A model generated the notes under the pieces. The model made no database searches. It was not told where the DNA came from and worked only from the letters and a program-made list of their open reading frames with translations. Below, piece by piece: positions 26,712-41,955 of a stretch of DNA of 64,000 nucleotides. The translations under genes were made by a program, and so were the position numbers. This stretch comes from Bacteroidota bacterium (GTDB taxonomy: Bacteria; Bacteroidota; Ignavibacteria; SZUA-365): positions 1 through 64,000 of the forward strand of contig JACZJN010000220.1 in the NCBI GenBank assembly GCA_014860565.1, written 5' to 3'. Position 1 is the stretch's first letter. Every line of letters begins with the position of its first letter.

Positions 26712-28052
26712 ATGTCTACCGCACTGAACGACTTCATGCAGGAAGTCAAAGCCAAAAACCCGGGCGAAGCCGAGTTCCATCAGGCAGTTGAAGAAGTAGT
26801 CGAAACGCTGATGCCGGTTGTTGAAAAACAGCCGGAATATCGCAAGGCCAAGGTTCTTGAGCGCATGGTCGAACCCGAGCGCACGATTTCTTTCCGCGTT
26901 CCCTGGGTTGCCGACAATGGCGAAGTCCGCGTCAACCGCGGCTATCGCATCGAGTTCAACAGCGCCATCGGTCCGTACAAGGGCGGTCTGCGGTTCCACC
27001 CGAGTGTCACGCTGTCCATTCTGAAGTTCCTCGGTTTCGAGCAGATCTTCAAAAACTCCCTCACCACGCTCCCGATGGGCGGCGGCAAGGGCGGTTCGGA
27101 CTTCGATCCGAAGTTCAAATCGAAAAACGAAATCATGCGTTTCTGCCAGAGTTTCATGAGCGAGCTGTATCGCCACATCGGTCCGAACACCGATGTTCCC
27201 GCCGGTGACATCGGCGTGGGCGGACAGGAAATCGGTTTCATGTTCGGCCAGTACAAAAAACTGAAAAATTCTTTTGACGGCGTGCTGACGGGCAAGGGCC
27301 TGAGCTGGGGCGGCTCCCTCATCCGTCCGGAAGCCACCGGCTTCGGCGTAACCTATTTCGCCAACGAAATGCTCAAGACCAAGGGACAGTCCTTCGAAGG
27401 AAAGACCGTCGCGATCTCCGGTTTCGGCAACGTGGCGTGGGGCGCGGCAATCAAGGTCAATGACATGGGCGGCAAGGTCGTCACCCTCTCCGGTCCCGAC
27501 GGATACGTCTACGATCCTGCCGGCATTTCCGGCGAGAAGATCGAGTACATGCTCGAACTGCGCGCCAGCAACCAGGACATCGTCGAACCGTATGCCGAGC
27601 GCTTTGGCGTGGAATTCATCGCCAACAAGCACCCGTGGGAAGTCAAGTGCGACGTCGCACTCCCCTGCGCAACCCAGAACGAACTCAACGAGGAAGACGC
27701 GAAGAACCTGCTCGCAAACGGCTGCATCTGCGTGTGCGAAGGCGCCAACATGCCGACCACGCCCGAAGGCGCGAAGTTGTTCCTTGACGCTGGCCTGCTC
27801 TATGGTCCTGCCAAGGCGGCGAACGCCGGTGGCGTGGCCGTGTCGGGTCTCGAAATGTCGCAGAACTCCATCCGTATGAGCTGGTCGCGTGAAGAGGTGG
27901 ATCAGCATCTGCACCGTATCATGAAGAATATCCACCAATCCTGCCTCGACGCCAGCGCTCAGTATGGTATGGCAGGGAATTACGTTGCCGGAGCAAACAT
28001 CGCCGGGTTCACGAAAGTGGCCGACGCAATGCTTGCACAGGGCATCGTATAA
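26712..28052 (+). CDS. Glutamate dehydrogenase, hexameric family, paralogue 1 (clostridial NAD-type coenzyme motif)
   Basis: 446 aa; [60 protein letters not shown]...[29 protein letters not shown]. Confidence 0.95.
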   Translation: MSTALNDFMQEVKAKNPGEAEFHQAVEEVVETLMPVVEKQPEYRKAKVLERMVEPERTISFRVPWVADNGEVRVNRGYRIEFNSAIGPYKGGLRFHPSVTLSILKFLGFEQIFKNSLTTLPMGGGKGGSDFDPKFKSKNEIMRFCQSFMSELYRHIGPNTDVPAGDIGVGGQEIGFMFGQYKKLKNSFDGVLTGKGLSWGGSLIRPEATGFGVTYFANEMLKTKGQSFEGKTVAISGFGNVAWGAAIKVNDMGGKVVTLSGPDGYVYDPAGISGEKIEYMLELRASNQDIVEPYAERFGVEFIANKHPWEVKCDVALPCATQNELNEEDAKNLLANGCICVCEGANMPTTPEGAKLFLDAGLLYGPAKAANAGGVAVSGLEMSQNSIRMSWSREEVDQHLHRIMKNIHQSCLDASAQYGMAGNYVAGANIAGFTKVADAMLAQGIV

Positions 28053-28195: not shown

Positions 28196-31100
28196 TTATT
28201 CGTTCATGTTGACGTCAAGCTTATCGTTATCCGGTATCTGCTTGAAAATGACACCCGAGCCGCTCTGCCCGTCCACCAGGATTTCGAGGGGGCGCTGTGC
28301 GCGCACATGGCGCACATACGTGGTCTCCTCGACGACTTCAAGCGTGTCGAGCCAGGCCCAATCGATGGTATCTTCCACCTTGTAATGCCGAGTGGTGAAA
28401 TACGCGATGTGGAACGAGGTAAGATTCTGGAAGAAATGCGAGCCCTGCGAGGGATCTGGCAGCATGTTCGGCAGCGACGTTTCGACGATGGCGTGGGCAC
28501 CGGAGATGCCGGGGAAACGCACAGGGATGCCGAGCCAGGGATCCGCGGAACCCCAGCGTCCCGGTCCCATCAGCAGGTAGGGCCGCTGCTCTCCGACCAG
28601 GTGCTTGTTGAACTCGGCGATCTCGCCGGCCATTTCCTTCGTCTGGGAGTTGTCGAAGGCCTCGGGCTTGACATAGACAATGTCCTGCAGGCGATAGATG
28701 CCGTTGCCGAGCACGTTTTCACTTTTCAACAACAGGTCTTCCCTCTTCAGGCGGTTGAAGTCGATATCCACCGTCCCTTCCTCCTTCACCATAGGACGCA
28801 CCTGCAGAAAATCGAATTCGCTGATGTCGTCGAAGTGCTTGCCGAGTACGCCGGCGAATTCGATTTCCACCGGACAGTTCATCGCGGTCTCGCACAGCTC
28901 CATCAGCAGGCGCAGCACTTTGGCGAGCGGGATGTACTCTGACTGCAGGATGGGTGCGAAGTTGATCACGCGCAATCCCTTGCGGAAGGTTCCCTCGTAC
29001 AGCGAATCGTCATCGGTGCAGAACGTGGATGCGAGGTAATCAACGGTGCCGTATTCCTCGGCAACCTTGATGTCGAGAAAATCGAGATTCTCGTCTTCGC
29101 TCGGTTTCTCCTCCAGCGGCTGCGATTCCAGATTCACCGCGAAAAACTTTTTCTGCGAATTGGAATAGTAGTCCTTGCGCGTGGCGAACTGCGGCATGAT
29201 CGTCGGGTACATGGGACAGAACTGTGCGCTGATGCCGCCGTCGACGATGGTCTTCCCGAGCCCCACTGCCAGATTGACGATGCCGTCTGCCTGTTTCGCG
29301 TCGCCGAATGGATAGTAATTGTATGAACGAGCGACGCCCGAATAATGCGGATAATAATGCTGTTTGTAACGCCTGCCGGCCATTTCCTGAATGATCACCG
29401 CCATCTGCTCTTCCTCGAGCCGATGCCCCGTGGCCTCAATGTAGTTCTTGGCACCACGGAGATAGGTGGATGCATACACATACTTGACCGCCTGCTCGAG
29501 TTCCTGATAGCGCTGATACGGATCGGGATTGCTGTTCGGAAGCATCACCGTCGCATAGATGCCCGCGAAAGGCTGGTACAGGGTGTCTTCGAGTAAACTC
29601 GACGACCGGATGGCGAGCGGGTGCTGGTTTCTCAGCACCACGGCACGGAGGTCCTCCTCAATGGTGTTCGGGAAACGCGCGTTCATGAACAGTCGGACGA
29701 TCTCCTCATCCGCGATGTTCTGTATAACCTGCGGAAGCAGGTTGTTCAACTCCATGAACTGCACGAATACTTCGGTGCAGAGAATGATGCTGCGCGGGAT
29801 CTTGATGCGGACATTCGGGAAATACGATGGGTGCAGATAGTTCTTCAGAATGTTGTCGATGAAAGCCAGTCCGCGTGCCTTGCCCCCGAGCGAACCGCGG
29901 CCGATGCGCAGAAACGTGGCGCGGGAATCGAAGTCCTCGTGCGAAAAATCGGCAATAAGACCCCGCTCATCATAGATCACCAGTTCGTCGATCTTGCGGA
30001 TGATATAGCGCCGCAGTGATTCGATGGTCTTGAATTCGGTGATCTTCACCGGTTTGATTTCCTGCGCGAGCCGGAAGCGCGTACGTGCGAGCAGCCAGTT
30101 GCTGAAATGATCGCGCGATGCGTGGAACAGAAGCGAATCATCGGGAATGGTATGCAGGCGCTGCCGCAACTGCCGGATCGTGCGCGCGCGATCGACTTCC
30201 GTACCGTCGGGCATGCGGAAAATGAATTCACCGAAGCCGAAATTGGTCAGCATGAACTCCCGCACCTCCTGCAGTAGCGTTCGGGAATTTTTATTGGCGA
30301 ACGCCGCGTTGAGGGCATCGACTTCCTCGCGGAGGTCTTCGCGCGACGACTGCACGAGCACGGGAAGTTCCGGGCTGTGCTCCCGCACCCGCCGAATGTA
30401 CTTGAGTCCGGCATGCTCGTCCTCGACATCGTTGATCGGAAACGCCACGTCGGTGATGATTCCCAGCAGTTCGTGGCGGTACTTGTGGTAGTAGCGCCAC
30501 GCCTGCTCGAAATTCGTCGCATGAAGGATCTTGGGCCGGGCGCGCTGGCGCAGCAGTTTTTCCGCGAAGTTTTTCCCCTCCTCGATCAGCATCTGTCCCT
30601 GCTTGATCAGCTCGGTATAAATCAGCGGCAGGAAGGACGAATAGAACTGGGGTGAATCCTCGACGAGAATGATTGCGCGCACACCGAAATCCTTGCAGTC
30701 CACGCGCGCGTTGAGCAGATCCTCCAATTGCTTGATAATCGCGAGAAACAGTTTGCGGTCACCGGACCAGATGAACACGCGGTCGAAGAGGGTCAACGCA
30801 CCCTGGTTCATCAGCACCTGCAATTCGCGGCTCTGGTAGCCGAGGAGAGCAACGGGGAGATCCGGATGCACTTCCTTGACGGCCTGGCAGAAATCCTGCA
30901 GGCGCATGTCGCCGAGGCGCATCATGGTGATAACCAGGTCGAAACGGCTCTCCTCCATCGCAGCCAGGGCGGCTTCGCCGGAGTAAACGCGCGTGATCGA
31001 CGGCGCATAGTGCAGATTCAATTCGAGGTATTCGCTGAAGATCGCCTCGGTGAGCTGGCCGTCGTCAACGAGTGTGTAAAAATCGTAGCGGCTCGATACG

Positions 31101-31234
31101 AGGAGGATATTGTTGACCCGAAAGCGCATCAGGTCCTTGAAATCAAGATCGTGCGGACTGATGTCCTTGTCGGAGAAACCGAAATCGAGAATGAGGTCGC
31201 GGAGTTCGTCGCGTTTTATGCGTTTTCGTTTCAT
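28196..31234 (-). CDS. PEP/pyruvate-binding (PPDK_N-like ATP-grasp) protein with two N-terminal receiver-like domains, paralogue 1
   Basis: 1012 aa; 'GSLGGKARGLAFIDNIL', 'AIRSSSLLEDTLYQPFAGIYATVM', 'VNLAVGLGKTIVDGG', 'FDFLQVRPM' typical of PEP-synthase N-domain; receiver-like 'NNILLVSSRYD' and 'IILVEDSP...GIITDVAFP...VLVQSS...NKNS'; no GG.TSH phosphohistidine motif. Confidence 0.85.
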   Translation of the reverse strand: MKRKRIKRDELRDLILDFGFSDKDISPHDLDFKDLMRFRVNNILLVSSRYDFYTLVDDGQLTEAIFSEYLELNLHYAPSITRVYSGEAALAAMEESRFDLVITMMRLGDMRLQDFCQAVKEVHPDLPVALLGYQSRELQVLMNQGALTLFDRVFIWSGDRKLFLAIIKQLEDLLNARVDCKDFGVRAIILVEDSPQFYSSFLPLIYTELIKQGQMLIEEGKNFAEKLLRQRARPKILHATNFEQAWRYYHKYRHELLGIITDVAFPINDVEDEHAGLKYIRRVREHSPELPVLVQSSREDLREEVDALNAAFANKNSRTLLQEVREFMLTNFGFGEFIFRMPDGTEVDRARTIRQLRQRLHTIPDDSLLFHASRDHFSNWLLARTRFRLAQEIKPVKITEFKTIESLRRYIIRKIDELVIYDERGLIADFSHEDFDSRATFLRIGRGSLGGKARGLAFIDNILKNYLHPSYFPNVRIKIPRSIILCTEVFVQFMELNNLLPQVIQNIADEEIVRLFMNARFPNTIEEDLRAVVLRNQHPLAIRSSSLLEDTLYQPFAGIYATVMLPNSNPDPYQRYQELEQAVKYVYASTYLRGAKNYIEATGHRLEEEQMAVIIQEMAGRRYKQHYYPHYSGVARSYNYYPFGDAKQADGIVNLAVGLGKTIVDGGISAQFCPMYPTIMPQFATRKDYYSNSQKKFFAVNLESQPLEEKPSEDENLDFLDIKVAEEYGTVDYLASTFCTDDDSLYEGTFRKGLRVINFAPILQSEYIPLAKVLRLLMELCETAMNCPVEIEFAGVLGKHFDDISEFDFLQVRPMVKEEGTVDIDFNRLKREDLLLKSENVLGNGIYRLQDIVYVKPEAFDNSQTKEMAGEIAEFNKHLVGEQRPYLLMGPGRWGSADPWLGIPVRFPGISGAHAIVETSLPNMLPDPSQGSHFFQNLTSFHIAYFTTRHYKVEDTIDWAWLDTLEVVEETTYVRHVRAQRPLEILVDGQSGSGVIFKQIPDNDKLDVNMNE

Positions 31235-31544: not shown

Positions 31545-32969
<1,425 letters not shown>

Positions 32970-33176: not shown

Positions 33177-36100
33177 CTATGCTTTCGTCATTGGATGCTT
33201 GAGGACGGCCCCGTTACCTGTCTGTCCGTCGACGAGAATCATGACGTCCTCGGGGGAACGCACGTGGCGCGTGTGCTTCGTCTCCTCCACGCAGTCGAGC
33301 CCCGCCAGCCAGTCCCAGTCGACGGCATGCGCGTCGTTGTAATGGCGCAGCGTAAAATAGGCGATGCGGAAGGAGGTCAGGTTCTGGAAGAAATGCGAGC
33401 CCTGCGACGGATCGATGATCATGTTCGGCAGCGTCGTCTCCACGATTGCGCGGGCGTCGGAGATATCCGAGAAACTGACGGGAATACCCAATGACGGATC
33501 GCTGCTGCCCCAACGTCCGGGGCCGATCAGCAGATACGGACGTCGCTCACGCAGCAGCGCCTGATTGATCGCGCTGATCTCGCGCACCATTTCCCGCGTT
33601 CTCATCGCGTCAAAGCTTTCCGGCTTGATGTACACGATGTCGCGCACACGCGAAATCCCGTTGCCCAATGCCTTTTCGCAGCGGAAAAGCAACTGCGTCG
33701 GGTCGAGTGCCTCGATGTCAACGTTCGCCCCTGCCTCCTGCTTGACCATGGGACGCAGCTGAAGAAAACTGAATTCCGCGGGCAACGGCGTGCCGCTGCC
33801 CAGACGCACCGCGAATTCTATCTCCACGGGAGCGTTGACGGCGGTCTCGCACATGTTCACCAGCAGCTTGATGACCTGGTTCAGAGGGATAACCTCGGAT
33901 TTCAAAATCGGTGCAAACGTGATGATGCGCGTGCCGCTGCGGCTCATCCCTTCGTACAGTCTGTCGTCCTGTCCGGAATATGTGCTCGCGACGTGCGTCA
34001 GCGTACCATGCGCCTCGGCATCCTTCAGCTCGAGCTCCACGAGATTCTGATCTTCGCGTGGATACTTGCGGATGATGTCGGACTGCAGATCAAGCGCGAA
34101 AAACTTCAGCTGGGAATTATGGAACAGGTCCCTCGTTGTCCCGAACTGCGGATACACCGTCGGATAAGCCGGGGAGAACTGCAGGCTCGTCCCGCCGTCG
34201 ACAATGGTTCGCCCCAGTCCGAGTGCGAGATTCACCACGCCGTCTTTTTGCGTCGCCTTGCCGAAAGGGTAGTAGTTGAACGAACGTGCCACGCCGGACA
34301 CCCGCGGATAGAAATAGCGTCCATGCCGCGTCCCGACCATCTCCTGAATGATCACGGCCATCTTCTCCTCTTCGATGCGATTCGAAGTCGCTTCGATGTA
34401 GTTTTTCGCCTGCCGGAAATAGGTGGAAGCGAAAACGTACTTGATGGCCTGCAGCAGGTTGTGGAAGCGCACCGAGATGTCGGGACTGCTGTTCGGTATC
34501 ATCACCGTTGCATAAATACCGGCGAATGGCTGATACATCGCATCCTCGAGCAGGGAGGACGACCGGACGGCCAGGGGGAAGCGGGCCTTGTCGAGAATCG
34601 CCCGCAGATCGCCGAGGATGGTCGGCGGCAGATCGGCATGCAGGAAGGCGCGAAGGATTTCCTGATCGGAAACATTCTGCACCGCGAGCGAGAGCAGATC
34701 GTTCTGTTCGATGAATTCCGCGAACACATCCGTGCCCAGCACGATGGTACGCGGAATCGAGATGCGCATGTTCGGGAAATAATCCGGCTCGAGATACTTG
34801 CGCAGCAGATTGTCGGTGAATGCAAGACCACGCCCCTTGCCGCCGAGCGACCCTGACCCGATACGGAGGAAGGTGTCTTCGGCGTCATAATCCCCTCGCG
34901 CGAAATCGGAGATGACGCCTTTCTGATCCTGCACGAGCTGTTCGTTGATGGCGGCGATCAGATAGGCGCGCAATTCGTCCATCGAAGAAAACTGATTGAC
35001 CTTCACCGGCTTGAGACGGTTCGAGAGTTCAAACCGTGTGCGTGCCTTCAACCAGTTGCTGAAGTGGTCGCGCGAGGCATGGAACTCGAGACAGGCGTCC
35101 GGTACGAGATGCAGGCGCTCTCGCAGTTCGCGCAGATTGCGCGCACGCGTCACCTCGCTTCCGTCGGGCATGCGGAAGAGGAAATCGCCGAAACCGAAAT
35201 TGTCCTTCATGAAATCACTCAGCGACTGCAGCAGCATGCGGGAATTCTTGTCGACGAATGACATGCCTTCCTGCTCGATTTCAAAGCGAAGCTCCGTATT
35301 GGACGATTGCACGAGCACGGGCAGCTCAGGATTGTCGGCGCGCACGAGGCGCGCAAGCTTGAGACCCGCCGGTTCCGCTTCATCGTCGACCCCGGGGAAG
35401 GTCATGTCGGCGATGATGCCGAGCAATGTGTGTCGGTATTTTTTGTAGTAGGTAAGCGCCTCATCGAACGAACGCGCCAGAAAGATTTTCGGGCGCGCGC
35501 GCTGCCGCAGCAGCTTATCGGCAAAGTTTTTTCCCTCCTCGATCAGATCCTGCACCTGCTGGATCAGGTCTGCATACATCAGCGGCAGGTAGGAAGAATA
35601 GAACCAGGGAGAATCCTCGACAAGAAGGATGGTACGGACGCCGAACTCCAGGCAATCCACAGGTGCATTGCGCAGATCCTCAAACAGTTTGATCAGCGCG
35701 AGAAACAGCTTCCGGTCACCCGACCAGACAAACACGTTGTCGAAACAGGCCGTGCTTACTGTTTTCAGGAACAGTTCGAATTCCGCCGACGGGAAGGAAA
35801 GCAGCACCATGGGAATGTCCGGATGCTGCCGTTTGACCGAGGTGCAGAACGATGCCAGATCCATGTCCCCCAGCCGGAGCATGGAAATGACGAGATCGAA
35901 TTCCTGTGATTCGAGCAGTCGTAGCGCCGCCTCGCCCGAATTGACACGGATGATATGCGGAGCGTAATGCAGGTTCAGCTCGGTATACTCGTTGAAGATC
36001 GCCTCGGTCAACTGGCCGTCCTCGACCAGCGTGTAGTAATCGTAGAGGCTGGAAACGAGCAGAATGTTGTTGATGCGAAAACGCATCAGGTCGCGGAAAT

Positions 36101-36191
36101 CCAGCTGACGGATCTGCGGTACCGCCCCACCGACGCCATGGGTCAGGATCAGTTCGGTGACTTCGTCGCTATTGTTCGTGCGTGATTTCAT
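33177..36191 (-). CDS. PEP/pyruvate-binding (PPDK_N-like) protein with two receiver-like domains, paralogue 2
   Basis: 1004 aa, collinear with 28196-31234: 'NNILLVSSLYDYYTLVEDGQL', 'TILLVEDSP', 'GSLGGKGRGLAFTDNLL', 'AVRSSSLLEDAMYQPFAGIYATVM', 'LLIGPGRWGSSDPSLGIPV', 'DPSQGSHFFQNL'. Confidence 0.85.
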   Translation of the reverse strand: MKSRTNNSDEVTELILTHGVGGAVPQIRQLDFRDLMRFRINNILLVSSLYDYYTLVEDGQLTEAIFNEYTELNLHYAPHIIRVNSGEAALRLLESQEFDLVISMLRLGDMDLASFCTSVKRQHPDIPMVLLSFPSAEFELFLKTVSTACFDNVFVWSGDRKLFLALIKLFEDLRNAPVDCLEFGVRTILLVEDSPWFYSSYLPLMYADLIQQVQDLIEEGKNFADKLLRQRARPKIFLARSFDEALTYYKKYRHTLLGIIADMTFPGVDDEAEPAGLKLARLVRADNPELPVLVQSSNTELRFEIEQEGMSFVDKNSRMLLQSLSDFMKDNFGFGDFLFRMPDGSEVTRARNLRELRERLHLVPDACLEFHASRDHFSNWLKARTRFELSNRLKPVKVNQFSSMDELRAYLIAAINEQLVQDQKGVISDFARGDYDAEDTFLRIGSGSLGGKGRGLAFTDNLLRKYLEPDYFPNMRISIPRTIVLGTDVFAEFIEQNDLLSLAVQNVSDQEILRAFLHADLPPTILGDLRAILDKARFPLAVRSSSLLEDAMYQPFAGIYATVMIPNSSPDISVRFHNLLQAIKYVFASTYFRQAKNYIEATSNRIEEEKMAVIIQEMVGTRHGRYFYPRVSGVARSFNYYPFGKATQKDGVVNLALGLGRTIVDGGTSLQFSPAYPTVYPQFGTTRDLFHNSQLKFFALDLQSDIIRKYPREDQNLVELELKDAEAHGTLTHVASTYSGQDDRLYEGMSRSGTRIITFAPILKSEVIPLNQVIKLLVNMCETAVNAPVEIEFAVRLGSGTPLPAEFSFLQLRPMVKQEAGANVDIEALDPTQLLFRCEKALGNGISRVRDIVYIKPESFDAMRTREMVREISAINQALLRERRPYLLIGPGRWGSSDPSLGIPVSFSDISDARAIVETTLPNMIIDPSQGSHFFQNLTSFRIAYFTLRHYNDAHAVDWDWLAGLDCVEETKHTRHVRSPEDVMILVDGQTGNGAVLKHPMTKA

Positions 36192-36261: not shown

Positions 36262-37548
36262 TCACACCCATCCTCTCATCTTGCAGGCCTCGGCGACGCG
36301 GGCAATAGCGATCATGTAGGCCGCGTCACGCATAGGGATATTCCGGCGATGCGCCATCTGCGAGACCGCGAAATAGGCGTCGGTCATTTTCGTATCAAGT
36401 TTGGCGATGACTTCGTCGCGGGTCCAGTAGTAATTCATGTTGCTCTGCACCTGCTCGAAATAACTGCACGTCACCCCACCCGCGTTGGCGAGAAAATCAG
36501 GGATGAGCCAGATGCCTTTTTCCCGGATCACCGCATCGGCGGCGGGCGTCGTCGGTCCGTTGGCGCCCTCCGCCACGATGCGCACGCAGCCTTTGATTCC
36601 CTTGACCGTGTCGCGGTTCACCTGGTTCTCCATGGCGGCAGGGATGAGAACGTCCACCTCCTGTTCGATCCAGTCGTCTCCCGGAAGGACCTCGTACCCT
36701 GCATCGGCTGCCTTGTCGCGGTTGATTTCCCCGTAGGAATTCGTCATGCCGCGCAGTTGCTTGAGATCCACGCCGCCTTTTTTTCGGAAAGTGAAGGCGC
36801 TTTGCGCTTTCTGATCCCAGCTCGAGACAGCGATCACCGTGCCGCCATAAGAATGGAACAGGTCGATCGCGTACTGCGCGACATTGCCGAAGCCCTGCAC
36901 CGATGCCGTGCTTTCCTCAATGCGCATGTTGAGTTCGCCAAGCGCCTCGCGTACGGCGTAGATCACTCCGTAGCCAGTGGATTCGGTTCGGCCCAACGAA
37001 CCGCCGAGTCCGATCGGCTTGCCCGTGATGAAGCCCGGCGCATGACGTCCGGTGAGCACTTCATATTCGTCGAGCATCCAGAGCATGTGCTGTGCCGAGG
37101 TCATCACATCGGGTGCGGGTACGTCACGATCGGGGCCGACATTCTCGATGATTTTTCTCACCCACCCGCGGCACAGCGCTTCCTGTTCACGCAGGGAGAG
37201 ATTGTGCGGATCACAGATGACGCCGCCCTTCCCTCCACCGAGCGGAATATCGACGACGGCGGTTTTCCACGTCATCCACATGGCAAGCGCGCGCACCGTA
37301 TCAACCGTCTCCTGCGGATGGAAGCGGATGCCGCCCTTGCATGCACCGCGCGCGTCATTGTGCTGGATGCGAAAACCGCGGAAGACCTGGTATGAACCGT
37401 CGTCCATGCGGATGGGGATGTTGAAATGAAATTCCTTGTCCGGCGTGCGCAGCAGTGCACGCGTCGCTTCGTCAAGTCCGAGTTGCTCCGCGATCGCATC
37501 GAATTGCTGTTGTGCCATGCGGAACGGATTGAATGCTTCACCACTCAT
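36262..37548 (-). CDS. Glu/Leu/Phe/Val dehydrogenase family, paralogue 3 (more divergent glutamate dehydrogenase)
   Basis: Start placed at MSGEAFNPFRMAQQQFDAIAEQLG; 'DDGSYQVFRGFRIQHNDARGACKGGIRFHP', 'DIPLGGGKGGVICDP', 'VQGFGNVAQYAIDLF', 'LANAGGVTCSYFEQVQS'. Confidence 0.93.
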   Translation of the reverse strand: MSGEAFNPFRMAQQQFDAIAEQLGLDEATRALLRTPDKEFHFNIPIRMDDGSYQVFRGFRIQHNDARGACKGGIRFHPQETVDTVRALAMWMTWKTAVVDIPLGGGKGGVICDPHNLSLREQEALCRGWVRKIIENVGPDRDVPAPDVMTSAQHMLWMLDEYEVLTGRHAPGFITGKPIGLGGSLGRTESTGYGVIYAVREALGELNMRIEESTASVQGFGNVAQYAIDLFHSYGGTVIAVSSWDQKAQSAFTFRKKGGVDLKQLRGMTNSYGEINRDKAADAGYEVLPGDDWIEQEVDVLIPAAMENQVNRDTVKGIKGCVRIVAEGANGPTTPAADAVIREKGIWLIPDFLANAGGVTCSYFEQVQSNMNYYWTRDEVIAKLDTKMTDAYFAVSQMAHRRNIPMRDAAYMIAIARVAEACKMRGWV

Positions 37549-37681
37549 GCCTTGTCTCCTGGACAGTACGATATCAGGTGCGATCGGCCGCCTCCCGCGG
37601 TCTGCGGAATACGTCCTGAGCAAGCAAAGTATCATTTTTTCGCTTCCAACTCAATTCGTATCCGTTACTCCGGAATAAGCG

Positions 37682-37771
37682 GGCACAGAGGCACAGAGGG
37701 AAACGGGCAGGCCACTTACCGGGCAGCGGAAACTCTGTGCCTCTGTGCCTCTGTGCCTCTGTGCCTTTGTC
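37682..37771. repeat. Octamer repeat (GCCTCTGT)n with inverted counterpart, a potential hairpin, between divergent gdh paralogue 3 and PPDK_N paralogue 3
   Basis: ggcacagaggcacagaggg (37682-37700) and ctctgtgcctctgtgcctctgtgcctctgtgcctttgtcc (37733-37771). Confidence 0.85.
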
Positions 37772-37821
37772 CACGAATTCGCTATTTTCCTCCTGATATC
37801 CATTTTTTGGGGCGATGCGCA

Positions 37822-40800
37822 ATGAACATGAACAAGAAAGAAAAATCGCTGGGCGATCTGCTGTACGCTCTCGGGGAACGCGCCAAGGAACTCAACTGTC
37901 TGTATCATGTCGAGGAAGTATTGTCGCGGAAAGATGCCGCGGTGGAAGACGTGCTTCAGGGCATCATCGCGGCCATTCCGCCCGGATGGCAGTTTCCCGA
38001 CATCTGCCGCGTGCGCATTCGTCTCGGCAAACGCGCGTACACCTCACCGGAATTTCAACCGACGCAGTGGAAGCTGGCGTCCTCGATCGTCGTGCAGGAC
38101 AAGGTGGAGGGCAGCATCGAAGTCTATTATGAGCGCGAGGTGGGCACCGCGGACGAAGGGCCGTTCCTCCATGACGAACGCAAACTCATCAATACCATCG
38201 CGGAGCGTGTCGGTCATTACCTGCTGCATCAGCAGCTGAAAAACGTCTTCAACGAATGGCAGACGCTCAAGGAGCAGCTTGCGGAGAAAAAGCGGCCCGA
38301 GTGGAAAGTCATTCTGGAAATGCTTCGCCGCACGGACCAGAATCTGTACACACGCATTTCGCGCAAGATGCTCAACCGCCTCTGCTGGTCGGGCATCAAG
38401 ATCGCCTGTCAGCTGATGCAGCGATTCAGTACACGCAACGGCGACAATCAGGAAGTGTTCGGTGAAAGCAACCGCCCCCGGCAGCGCGAGGAGCTTTACA
38501 ACTTCATGTCCTCAAGCGACGAGATCTTCCAGATCGCAGCAGAGCATCTCAGCGAGGAAGAAATCCTTTCCCTGATCCAGAGGTGGATAAAGGATGACAA
38601 GGCCTCCTTCCTCGTCAACACGGTCGAAAATCTCGACACGTCGCTCTCGGAGATCGTCGACGCCATCGGACGCTTCTATCACATCTTCCCCGAGGGCATC
38701 GACATGTCGACGTCCACTGAGAAGGGCCTCCGCGTTTCACTCATCCGCCGCTTCTTCACCGAACAGCTCCCCTATATCAACGTCGCGAAGCACTACCTGG
38801 AGGTGCGGGATTTCGCGGAACTGATTCGCCGTATCATTTTCCACCAGAAGAGCCACGGAAAGCTGGGGGGGAAAAGTTCGGGACTCTTCCTCGCCGGCCA
38901 GATCATCCGCAAGGAATCCGAGGAAAGCGGCCGCTTCAAATCCGTGCGCGTACCGAAAACCTGGTACATCACTTCCGACGGAATCCTGAATTTCATTCAC
39001 TACAACAATCTGGAAGAAGTCTTCAATCAGAAATACCTCGATATCGAGCAGGTGCGTGAAGAGTATCCGTCGATCATCCAGGTGTTCAAGAATTCATACT
39101 TCTCGCCCGAGTTCATCAAGGGACTCACCATGGCGCTGGACGATTTCGGCGACATCCCCCTGATCGTGCGCAGTTCATCGCTGCTTGAAGACAGCATGAA
39201 CGCAGCGTTTTCCGGAAAGTACAAAAGCCTGTTCCTCGCAAACACGGGGACGAAGGCAGAACGAATGGCAGCGCTGCTCGACGCGATCGCTGAAGTGTAC
39301 GCCTCGACGTTCGGACCCGATCCGATCGAATACCGGGCCGAACGCGGACTGCTCGATTTCCACGAGGAAATGGGGATCATGATCCAGGAAGTCGTCGGCG
39401 CACACATGGGCAAATACCTCATGCCGGCATGGTCGGGCGTCGCCTTCAGCCACAACGAGTTCCGCTGGTCTCCGCGCATCAAGCGCGACGACGGGTTGAT
39501 ACGCCTCGTCCCCGGACTCGGGACGCGGGCGGTGGACCGCGTCGGCGACGATTACCCCGTGCTCATCGCGCCGGGGCAGCCCTCATTGCGCGTGAACATA
39601 ACTCCAGATGAGATTGTCCGTTATTCTCCCAAGAAAATCGACGTCATCAACCTGGAGAGCGGCTGTTTCGAAACCATCGACATTCTCGACCTGCTGCGCG
39701 AAACCGGACATTCGTATCCTGGCATCAACAACATCGTGTCGTTTTACGACGGCGATACAATCCGGCAGCCGTTCGGATTCGATCTGGATTTCGAGAACAG
39801 CATTTACGCCGTCACGTTCAACGGCCTGATCGCCAACACGCATTTCCTCAAGGACATCCGCGACATGCTGCTGCTGCTCCAGCAGCGCCTGCAGACGCCT
39901 GTGGATATCGAATTCGCCTCCGACGGGAAGAATCTGTACCTGCTTCAATGCCGGCCGCAGAGCTTCACCCGCCACAACATTCCCGCGCCGATTCCGCAGG
40001 ACATTCCGCGGAGCCGCATGCTGTTCACAGCCAATCGATATATCTCGAACGGGCACGTCCCGAATATCACGCACGTCGTGTATGTGCATCCGGAACGCTA
40101 CGCTGAATTGCCCGACCGGCAGGCGCTGCTTTCGGTGGGACGCTGCGTGGGCCGTCTCAATAAAATTCTACCCAAGCGGCAGTTCATGCTCATGGGTCCC
40201 GGACGCTGGGGCAGCCGCGGCGACATCAAGCTCGGCGTGAATGTCACATACTCCGACATCAACAACACGGCCCTGCTGGTTGAGATCGCGCGCGACCAGG
40301 GCGGCTATCTTCCAGACCTGTCGTTTGGGACACACTTCTTCCAGGATCTCGTGGAGGCATCCATCCGCTATCTGCCGTTGTATCCGGACGAGGCCTCCGT
40401 GTATTTCAACGAACCATTTCTGACACACGGCAAGAATGTTCTTGCCGATATTCTTCCCGACTACGCGTTTCTGGCGGATACTGTTTTCGTCGTCGACGTG
40501 GAGGCGAGCAGCGAAGGGAAAATTCTGCGTGTGTTGATGAACGCGGAAATCGAACAGGCGGTATGTTTCCTCGAAGACCCGGTCAATGTGCAGCCCGAGC
40601 CGCAGGAATTGCCGGCACCCGTGCAACGGACAATCGAGGATCACTGGGAATGGCGTCTCCGCATGGCCGAACGTCTCGCTTCCGATATCAATCTCGAGGA
40701 TTTCGGCGTGAAAGGCCTCTACATTTTTGGAAGTACAAAAAACGGGACAGCCGGTCCGTCCAGCGACATCGATTTGCTGGTCCATCACGACGCGAGCCCC

Positions 40801-41004
40801 GAGCAGATGCAGTGCCTTCAGCACTATTTCCTCGGATGGGGACAGTCATTGGCGGAAGTCAATTTCCTGCGTACGGGCTACCGCATCGAGAATATTCTCG
40901 ACACTCATTTCGTCACTGATGAGGACATCGCGCGCCGCTCCAGCTACGCCGCAAAGATCGATGCCATCACTGACGCCGCGCGTCCGCTACGTGTGCGCAC
41001 GTAA
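37822..41004 (+). CDS. PEP/pyruvate-binding (PPDK_N-like) protein, paralogue 3, with N-terminal GAF-like sensor and C-terminal nucleotidyltransferase domain
   Basis: ATG 37822 (MNMNKKEKSLGDLLYALGERAKELNCLYHVEEVL), in frame with the long ORF; 'LGGKSSGLFLAGQII', 'IVRSSSLLEDSMNAAFSGKYKSLF', 'LYLLQCRPQ', 'LMGPGRWGSRGDIKLGV', 'SFGTHFFQDL'; C-terminal 'LYIFGSTKNGTAGPSSDIDLLVHHD'. Confidence 0.85.
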   Translation: MNMNKKEKSLGDLLYALGERAKELNCLYHVEEVLSRKDAAVEDVLQGIIAAIPPGWQFPDICRVRIRLGKRAYTSPEFQPTQWKLASSIVVQDKVEGSIEVYYEREVGTADEGPFLHDERKLINTIAERVGHYLLHQQLKNVFNEWQTLKEQLAEKKRPEWKVILEMLRRTDQNLYTRISRKMLNRLCWSGIKIACQLMQRFSTRNGDNQEVFGESNRPRQREELYNFMSSSDEIFQIAAEHLSEEEILSLIQRWIKDDKASFLVNTVENLDTSLSEIVDAIGRFYHIFPEGIDMSTSTEKGLRVSLIRRFFTEQLPYINVAKHYLEVRDFAELIRRIIFHQKSHGKLGGKSSGLFLAGQIIRKESEESGRFKSVRVPKTWYITSDGILNFIHYNNLEEVFNQKYLDIEQVREEYPSIIQVFKNSYFSPEFIKGLTMALDDFGDIPLIVRSSSLLEDSMNAAFSGKYKSLFLANTGTKAERMAALLDAIAEVYASTFGPDPIEYRAERGLLDFHEEMGIMIQEVVGAHMGKYLMPAWSGVAFSHNEFRWSPRIKRDDGLIRLVPGLGTRAVDRVGDDYPVLIAPGQPSLRVNITPDEIVRYSPKKIDVINLESGCFETIDILDLLRETGHSYPGINNIVSFYDGDTIRQPFGFDLDFENSIYAVTFNGLIANTHFLKDIRDMLLLLQQRLQTPVDIEFASDGKNLYLLQCRPQSFTRHNIPAPIPQDIPRSRMLFTANRYISNGHVPNITHVVYVHPERYAELPDRQALLSVGRCVGRLNKILPKRQFMLMGPGRWGSRGDIKLGVNVTYSDINNTALLVEIARDQGGYLPDLSFGTHFFQDLVEASIRYLPLYPDEASVYFNEPFLTHGKNVLADILPDYAFLADTVFVVDVEASSEGKILRVLMNAEIEQAVCFLEDPVNVQPEPQELPAPVQRTIEDHWEWRLRMAERLASDINLEDFGVKGLYIFGSTKNGTAGPSSDIDLLVHHDASPEQMQCLQHYFLGWGQSLAEVNFLRTGYRIENILDTHFVTDEDIARRSSYAAKIDAITDAARPLRVRT

Positions 41005-41094: not shown

Positions 41095-41955
41095 TTAGAG
41101 CAGTTCCCGGGTTGCGTTCTCGGGCGCATTGGGATCAAAACGAACGAGCGCGAGTTCCGGCCCGCGATGCGCCGCGCTGTAGCACCAGCATTCTCCCAGT
41201 TGCTCCTTCCAGTTCCCAGTAATCGAGGCGGATTCGTGAATATGTCCATGCAGCGTGATACGCGGCTGCCGCTGCAGAATGAATTTCCGAATCGCGACGC
41301 TGCCGACATGCACGTCGAGCGGTGCGTGATCGATTTTCCTGCCGTCCAACGCGGCACGGTCGAGCGCCGTGTTATAGGGTGGCGCATGAAAAAGCATGAT
41401 CGCACGGGCAAGGTCCGCATCCGCGGTGAGCGCGGCAAGATCATCCTGTATCGTCGCGTAGCGTGTCTCGGAGAGATCGGCAGGCACACTGCGTCGACCT
41501 TCTTCGGGCGAGATGCAGCCCGGCTCCACATAGCGCGAGACATCGTAACGCTCCCAGTCCTTGAGCTGAAAGGGCGACGGCGGCACGTAGCTGTAGCCGT
41601 ACACGGGATGTTCACCGACAGTATCGCGGCGTCCATGCAGATAGGTCCATAGCGCGGTATGTTCGACACCGAGCAGCGCTGATTCGACGCGCCTCGGATC
41701 GTCGTTGCCGAGGATGAGAAACACGCGTGGATATTCGTCCCCGAGTTCTTCCTGCAGGCTGCGCAACTGTGCCGCAAGGTAATCCTCGATGAAATCAGTC
41801 ACGACGGGGAATTGCGATGCAGTGGCGCGATGCGCTCCGGGGAGGAGGTCACCACCGAGGAGCACCGCATCGGGCCGTTCGCGGCCGATCGCGGCAAAGA
41901 GTTGTTCGTAACGGTGCTGATGTCCGTGGAGATCTGAAACGAAAAAGCAGAGCAT
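41095..41955 (-). CDS. Metallophosphoesterase
   Basis: FFVSDLHGHQHRYEQLF, LLGGDLLPG, LILGNDDPR, MLFHAPPYNTALD, TLHGHIHES. Confidence 0.88.
   Translation of the reverse strand: MLCFFVSDLHGHQHRYEQLFAAIGRERPDAVLLGGDLLPGAHRATASQFPVVTDFIEDYLAAQLRSLQEELGDEYPRVFLILGNDDPRRVESALLGVEHTALWTYLHGRRDTVGEHPVYGYSYVPPSPFQLKDWERYDVSRYVEPGCISPEEGRRSVPADLSETRYATIQDDLAALTADADLARAIMLFHAPPYNTALDRAALDGRKIDHAPLDVHVGSVAIRKFILQRQPRITLHGHIHESASITGNWKEQLGECWCYSAAHRGPELALVRFDPNAPENATRELL

Follow-up and report, generated by a model that had tools for sequence, protein, structure and literature searches.

A GAF-PPDK_N-nucleotidyltransferase protein with an undescribed conserved domain, encoded beside glutamate dehydrogenase, is a candidate controller of that enzyme

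The window analysed here is a stretch of 64,000 nucleotides from a member of the Bacteroidota (Ignavibacteria, SZUA-365; assembly GCA_014860565.1, contig JACZJN010000220.1), and the gene under study occupies positions 37822-41004 of its forward strand, where translation gives an uninterrupted open reading frame of 1060 residues. The encoded protein joins a GAF-type sensor, a PPDK_N ATP-grasp domain with intact motifs, an undescribed conserved domain (termed GTHFFQ after one of its motifs) and a C-terminal nucleotidyltransferase (NTase) domain whose motifs are largely intact; it is paired with a paralogue, and its link to genes for glutamate dehydrogenase (GDH), which connects carbon with nitrogen metabolism, is near-universal. 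The protein is likely to be a dedicated controller of GDH, a central nitrogen enzyme, and is read here, with a probability of about one half, as an enzyme dedicated to its covalent modification, gated by a signal and dependent on ATP, for which a chemistry, a modified residue and a direction of control are proposed below. The architecture is new and, with its undescribed domain, akin to PPDK-derived or NTase-based metabolic regulators. In the literature searched (open-licence papers), no description of this architecture or of its GDH link was found, nor was any dedicated GDH-modifying enzyme of bacteria, as against GlnE and GlnD for glutamine synthetase and PII.

Domain architecture

Domains were assigned using Pfam, AlphaFold and Foldseek, and all coordinates in this paragraph lie on the forward strand. 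The sensor with its flanking signalling helices (residues ~20-156, 37879-38289) is followed by an all-helical linker defined from the secondary structure of the AlphaFold model (residues ~157-340, 38290-38841), the PPDK_N ATP-grasp domain (residues 347-723, 38860-39990; PF01326, E=1e-58), the GTHFFQ domain (residues ~730-920, 40009-40581) and the NTase domain (residues 941-1056, 40642-40989). Pfam and Foldseek thus bear out the three-part make-up given in an earlier note on this DNA, namely a GAF-like sensor, PPDK_N and an NTase without receivers, although that note had missed the conserved domain at residues ~730-920. Receiver, swivel (PF00391) and phosphoenolpyruvate (PEP)/pyruvate TIM-barrel domains gave no Pfam match in the 1060-residue protein, and GlnE/GlnD domains (paired NTases, HD, ACT) gave none in Pfam or NCBIfam. 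Three subtypes were compared in what follows: the GAF/NTase protein, short PPDK_N proteins and receiver-PPDK_N proteins.

Linkage to glutamate dehydrogenase genes

A scan of GTDB genomes returned at least 581 relatives, and the ortholog counts rest on the best 80 of these, which are nearly full length, share 52-65% identity with the protein and carry record titles from ~16 phylum-level groups, including Bacteroidota, Zixibacteria, Acidobacteriota, Calditrichota, Spirochaetota, Planctomycetota, Gemmatimonadota, Krumholzibacteria, Eisenbacteria, Verrucomicrobiota and Cloacimonadota. Within the phylum, a strong match was present in 12 of the 118 genomes sampled. One ortholog with 78% identity (G005:C3:157855-161019), otherwise intact, contains a single in-frame TAA and is a pseudogene or the product of an assembly error.

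The neighbourhood was assessed for GDH in the 59 loci that had 3.4 kb or more of DNA upstream. A GDH gene adjoins in 58 of them, in 54 cases upstream on the same strand at less than 3 kb, and the usual order is gdh, a short PPDK_N gene and the GAF-PPDK_N-GTHFFQ-NTase gene. The short gene (~580 residues encoded) lies directly upstream, often overlapping, in 46 of 71 testable loci, and in ~20 loci GDH adjoins while the short partner is absent from the locus. At a density of three GDH genes in 4.75 Mb, a given locus would have one within 5 kb by chance in ~0.8% of cases; the loci are related by descent, and multiplying per-locus chances is indicative only. In a comparison of 21 genomes, counting by hand from coordinates gave 41 cases adjoining GDH among 42 testable PPDK_N/GTHFFQ genes, and both counts sustain the link to nitrogen metabolism that had been drawn from the position of the gene. 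The linked GDHs are themselves very conserved (80% mean column identity). An apparent GDH-PPDK fusion in one locus (L051) was ruled out, being a long GC-rich open frame ahead of the real GDH start.

Because this linkage is kept at such protein divergence and with varied flanks, gene order provides strong evidence that the protein and GDH share a function. The alternative, that common descent or co-transfer preserved the gene order in the absence of any functional tie to GDH, would accommodate the one genome (G007) that keeps the gene away from GDH; it is scarcely credible given the 58 of 59 loci, which fall under ~16 phylum names and differ in orientation and flanks, and given that paralogous receiver forms also adjoin other GDHs.

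The N-terminal sensor

The N-terminal region was modelled by AlphaFold from 78 orthologs (pLDDT 88.6). Foldseek placed GAF domains at the top of the matches to this model, the best being 4g3k (A. aeolicus NlhI; TM 0.62 by target, probability 1.0, E=1e-2), with NifA and further GAF structures also among them. Pfam GAF matches were weak and obtained for 23 of the 78 orthologs, with no match in the 1060-residue protein itself, and a sequence search of the N-terminal and middle domains against PDB chains returned nothing credible. A counterpart of residues 16-158, at 36% identity, is carried by histidine kinases encoded upstream of the gdh cluster in two neighbourhoods (L020, 1571-2785; L041, 2536-3747). 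The earlier note had described this region as a GAF-like sensor of the kind found in some histidine kinases, and both the fold match and the two kinases agree with it; at the level of the predicted model, the GAF fold is confirmed. A likeness has been reported between the GAF domain of Brucella EI-Ntr and that of the 2-oxoglutarate-binding NifA (PMC2937029).

The ATP-grasp and GTHFFQ domains

K351, R450, E697, Q709 and R711, which represent the catalytic K, R, E, Q and R of PPDK, are 95-100% conserved in all three subtypes, and D695 is also conserved in the comparison with the genome's own PPDK and the paralogues. Such conservation is as expected for catalysis and speaks against a non-catalytic GDH-binding protein in which the ATP-grasp and GAF domains would be nucleotide and metabolite sensors that regulate by binding; this alternative is highly unlikely, although it would fit the few lineages in which the NTase has decayed or been lost and the core has been kept.

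The domain that follows the ATP-grasp is common to all three subtypes and is marked by the signatures GPGRWGS, replaced by GFGRWGS in most short PPDK_N forms, and G[TS]HFF. Residues 716-935 gave a confident AlphaFold model (pLDDT 86.7, pTM 0.85) for which a Foldseek search against the PDB returned nothing at E<=0.001, and the domain matched no Pfam family; a recognisable swivel domain in this region was therefore ruled out. H838 (40333-40335) is the same residue in all three subtypes, without exception, and is a candidate phosphoacceptor or catalytic residue. The results point to an undescribed domain that may stand in for the phosphohistidine swivel of PPDK-type enzymes.

The PPDK_N family includes two-protein small-molecule dikinases (PMC12167813), and the pairing of two PPDK_N genes at these loci would suit a metabolic two-protein dikinase or ligase acting on a product of GDH, in the manner of HpeHI or rifampin phosphotransferase. 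However, each of the two proteins has its own complete ATP-grasp, whereas HpeHI splits the ATP-grasp from the swivel part, the paralogues carry sensor and receiver domains, and Pfam detected no substrate or swivel domain, so that a metabolic enzyme is decidedly unlikely. The GAF fold, the receivers on paralogues, the nearby histidine kinases with the same sensor and the lack of a swivel or PEP/pyruvate domain argue for regulation over metabolism.

The C-terminal nucleotidyltransferase

Pfam matched NTP_transf_2 (PF01909) at residues 955-995 (E=7e-9; score 36 bits, cut-off 21), and 76 of 78 orthologous C-termini individually matched both NTP_transf_2 and Polbeta. Using hhalign, the NTase profile aligned with those of bacterial minimal nucleotidyltransferases (MNTs) at 97% probability (E=1e-11), and a comparison with solved structures gave a weak match to the minimal nucleotidyltransferase 2rff (E=0.0024). 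The match is not a product of chance, because 75 of 80 testable sequences (~94%) keep all four GS and DxD residues (G970, S971, D982 and D984), the exceptions being D984N in three (L021, L042, L075), loss of both aspartates in L058 and S971R in L050.

The Pol-beta/MNT pattern proposed in the earlier note therefore stands in its hG[GS] and DxD elements, as seen by Pfam, by hhalign and in the intact motif residues. Its third acidic residue, placed in LAEVNF, did not hold up: E1012 is kept in 67 of 81 sequences, with Q or H elsewhere, and is thus probably not essential. Both N1014 and D1027 are invariant (79/79 each). A MAFFT alignment with MNTs of the same genome placed the third carboxylate at N1014, and hhalign placed it near H1029, two residues after D1027, in a stretch where the register is low-confidence; neither placement was trusted. 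On sequence grounds, the domain is confirmed as an MNT/pol-beta-type nucleotidyltransferase, with transfer activity predicted.

Three variants indicate that, as judged from the homologs, some lineages have a GDH-linked core to which the NTase is accessory: L152 (G028) is without the NTase motif and has GDH still adjoining, L153 (G127) is without both NTase and GAF, and L058, with both catalytic aspartates gone, still has GDH upstream. These variants bear on whether the NTase nucleotidylates GDH (or PII), as GlnE does glutamine synthetase, with the ATP-grasp in a secondary role. The conserved GS...DxD motif and the constancy of GDH as a neighbour are in keeping with this arrangement, which is nevertheless somewhat unlikely: GDH-linked paralogues exist without an NTase, the decayed-NTase homologs L152 and L058 still adjoin GDH, E1012 is variable and the third-carboxylate alignments disagree, and no PII-related or GlnE/GlnD-type domain was found among the proteins scanned. 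The earlier suggestion of nucleotidylylation of a nitrogen-metabolism target is consequently supported in its tie to GDH and weakened in its choice of the NTase as the agent, since the tie follows the PPDK_N/GTHFFQ core, GDH being retained both by NTase-less receiver paralogues and by NTase-decayed homologs.

The NTase target could be GDH, the partner PPDK_N protein or something else. In a further alternative, the NTase would have as its substrate either the PPDK_N partner or the ATP-grasp within its own protein, as MntA-type enzymes act on a partner, and would tune the kinase and not GDH. The close spacing of the short PPDK_N gene, which overlaps or abuts in 46 of 71 testable loci, and the position of the NTase closest to stand-alone MNTs are consistent with this alternative, but the ~20 loci in which GDH adjoins and the short partner is missing make it unlikely.

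Proposed mechanism

In the mechanism proposed for a dedicated GDH-modifying enzyme, the GAF domain would sense a metabolite, plausibly a reporter of carbon and nitrogen status such as 2-oxoglutarate or glutamine. The PPDK-type ATP-grasp would use ATP to phosphorylate a histidine, most likely H838 or a residue of the partner, by analogy with the chemistry of PPDK and PEP synthase, and GDH or the paired PPDK_N protein would receive a nucleotide from the C-terminal NTase. The second arm of the device would be this paired protein, which has two receivers in this family of bacteria and is of the short form in most phyla, and the output would be the activity or stability of GDH. The regulatory character of this mechanism is suggested by the GAF sensor, by the receivers on the paralogues and by the histidine kinases nearby.

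Several points weigh against it. Because there is no recognised phosphohistidine swivel and GTHFFQ has no fold match, H838 as phosphoacceptor is a guess from PPDK chemistry and conservation. The complete genome G007 keeps the gene far from any GDH, while both of its receiver forms are still with GDHs. A conserved neighbourhood speaks for a common function but does not tell which of the activities has which target, and no biochemical evidence for any member was found in the literature searched.

A broader version is put forward tentatively, in which two paired PPDK-derived ATP-grasp proteins, one of them GAF-gated and ending in an NTase and both using GTHFFQ as a new phosphotransfer domain, would covalently switch GDH. 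This would constitute a widespread, undescribed form of post-translational control, the GDH counterpart of the control of glutamine synthetase by GlnE and PII.

Comparison with known systems

The closest published precedent is VadK (Rv1127c) of Mycobacterium tuberculosis, a truncated PPDK derivative that undergoes histidine autophosphorylation and controls the methylcitrate-cycle enzymes it binds (PMC13400623). Both proteins have a PPDK ATP-grasp without a PEP/pyruvate domain. VadK is encoded near prpC and prpD, whose enzymes it binds and tunes (PMC13400623); the gene of the 1060-residue protein adjoins that of GDH, its putative target. However, phospho-His422 of VadK lies in the PPDK central (swivel) domain, in the place of which the GTHFFQ domain is found here, and the present protein differs further in its added GAF and NTase domains and in having GDH as its neighbour. 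Most likely it works like VadK or GlnE and belongs to neither.

With PPDK, PEP synthase, rifampin phosphotransferase and HpeHI the protein shares the PPDK_N ATP-grasp with conserved K, R, E, Q and R, but it has neither their swivel (PF00391) nor a substrate domain. As in GlnE and GlnD, a Pol-beta-type NTase is tied to an enzyme of ammonium assimilation; in contrast to them, a single small MNT-like NTase is fused to GAF and ATP-grasp domains, the GlnE, HD and ACT domains are absent and the link is to GDH. EI-Ntr (PtsP) of the nitrogen phosphotransferase system (PTS) likewise combines a GAF sensor and phosphotransfer chemistry in a nitrogen-related regulator, yet it uses PEP and a PTS EI core, whereas the donor domain here is an ATP-grasp and no PTS partners were seen. 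The NTase resembles the minimal nucleotidyltransferases (MntA antitoxins, 2rff, 1wot) by profile, but it is not stand-alone, has no paired HEPN protein and possesses an extra C-terminal region with conserved D1027, D1033, D1035, K1045 and D1051.

The gene cluster in this genome

The genome encodes exactly three GDHs and exactly three PPDK_N/GTHFFQ proteins, all inside one 14-kb stretch, and its only other PPDK_N gene is that of a true PPDK, in line with the designation of the protein as a third PPDK_N paralogue. GDH_B (36262-37548, reverse strand; 428 residues with a likely start at MSGEAFNPF) was identified using Pfam, is divergent from the gene of the 1060-residue protein and represents the GDH type that predominates among orthologous clusters. 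Just downstream of it, a 1004-residue receiver-receiver-PPDK_N-GTHFFQ protein is encoded on the reverse strand (33177-36191). This receiver form seems to stand in here for the short PPDK_N partner, because blast aligns its core at 43-50% with the short PPDK_N proteins found in other phyla. Beyond it lie GDH_A (31626-32969, forward strand), an NADP-type enzyme by Pfam and NCBIfam (PRK09414), and GDH_C (26712-28052, forward strand), the third GDH, which is 72% identical to GDH_A; between these two, a second receiver-receiver-PPDK_N-GTHFFQ protein is encoded on the reverse strand (28196-31234). In both receiver-PPDK_N proteins, matches to DUF5752 (PF19027) at about the cut-off were seen between the receivers and the ATP-grasp.

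The 273-bp divergent intergenic region between GDH_B and the gene of the 1060-residue protein (37549-37821) contains an inverted repeat (37684-37699 and 37737-37766) with 'tgtgcctc' units, which resembles a dispersed intergenic repeat. A calcineurin-like metallophosphoesterase is encoded convergently on the other side (41095-41955, reverse strand), and a convergent metallophosphoesterase gene lies downstream in 40 of 68 testable loci. It is present in G007 as well, where GDH is no longer close by, and could be part of the system.

Relatives in gut Bacteroidales

Using tblastn, receiver-PPDK_N proteins were identified in Parabacteroides distasonis, Phocaeicola massiliensis and a Prevotella. Two of the three gut Bacteroidales records found, those of P. 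distasonis and P. massiliensis, have an NADP-type gdh (gdhA) divergent from the receiver-PPDK_N gene and a second gdh within ~4-5 kb, and the Prevotella record has no gdh within 6 kb of the gene. Trans-acting genes reportedly affect GDH activity in Bacteroides thetaiotaomicron, according to the title of a 1996 paper by Baggio and Morrison; if such a gene belonged to the PPDK_N/GTHFFQ family, the regulatory reading would gain strength. With a GDH-adjoining cluster under ~16 phylum names and a receiver version in human gut Bacteroidales, this lead is now testable. In B. fragilis, one GDH is listed in three spots of a two-dimensional gel, a pattern that would fit charge variants, yet is common in gels of this kind (PMC4539542). 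The receiver-PPDK_N protein of P. distasonis is annotated only as a 'PEP/pyruvate-binding domain-containing protein', and two loci with a receiver-PPDK_N gene and a divergent gdhA (L183, 5636-8590 and 4106-5440; L185) lie on stretches that the deposited records label as plasmids.

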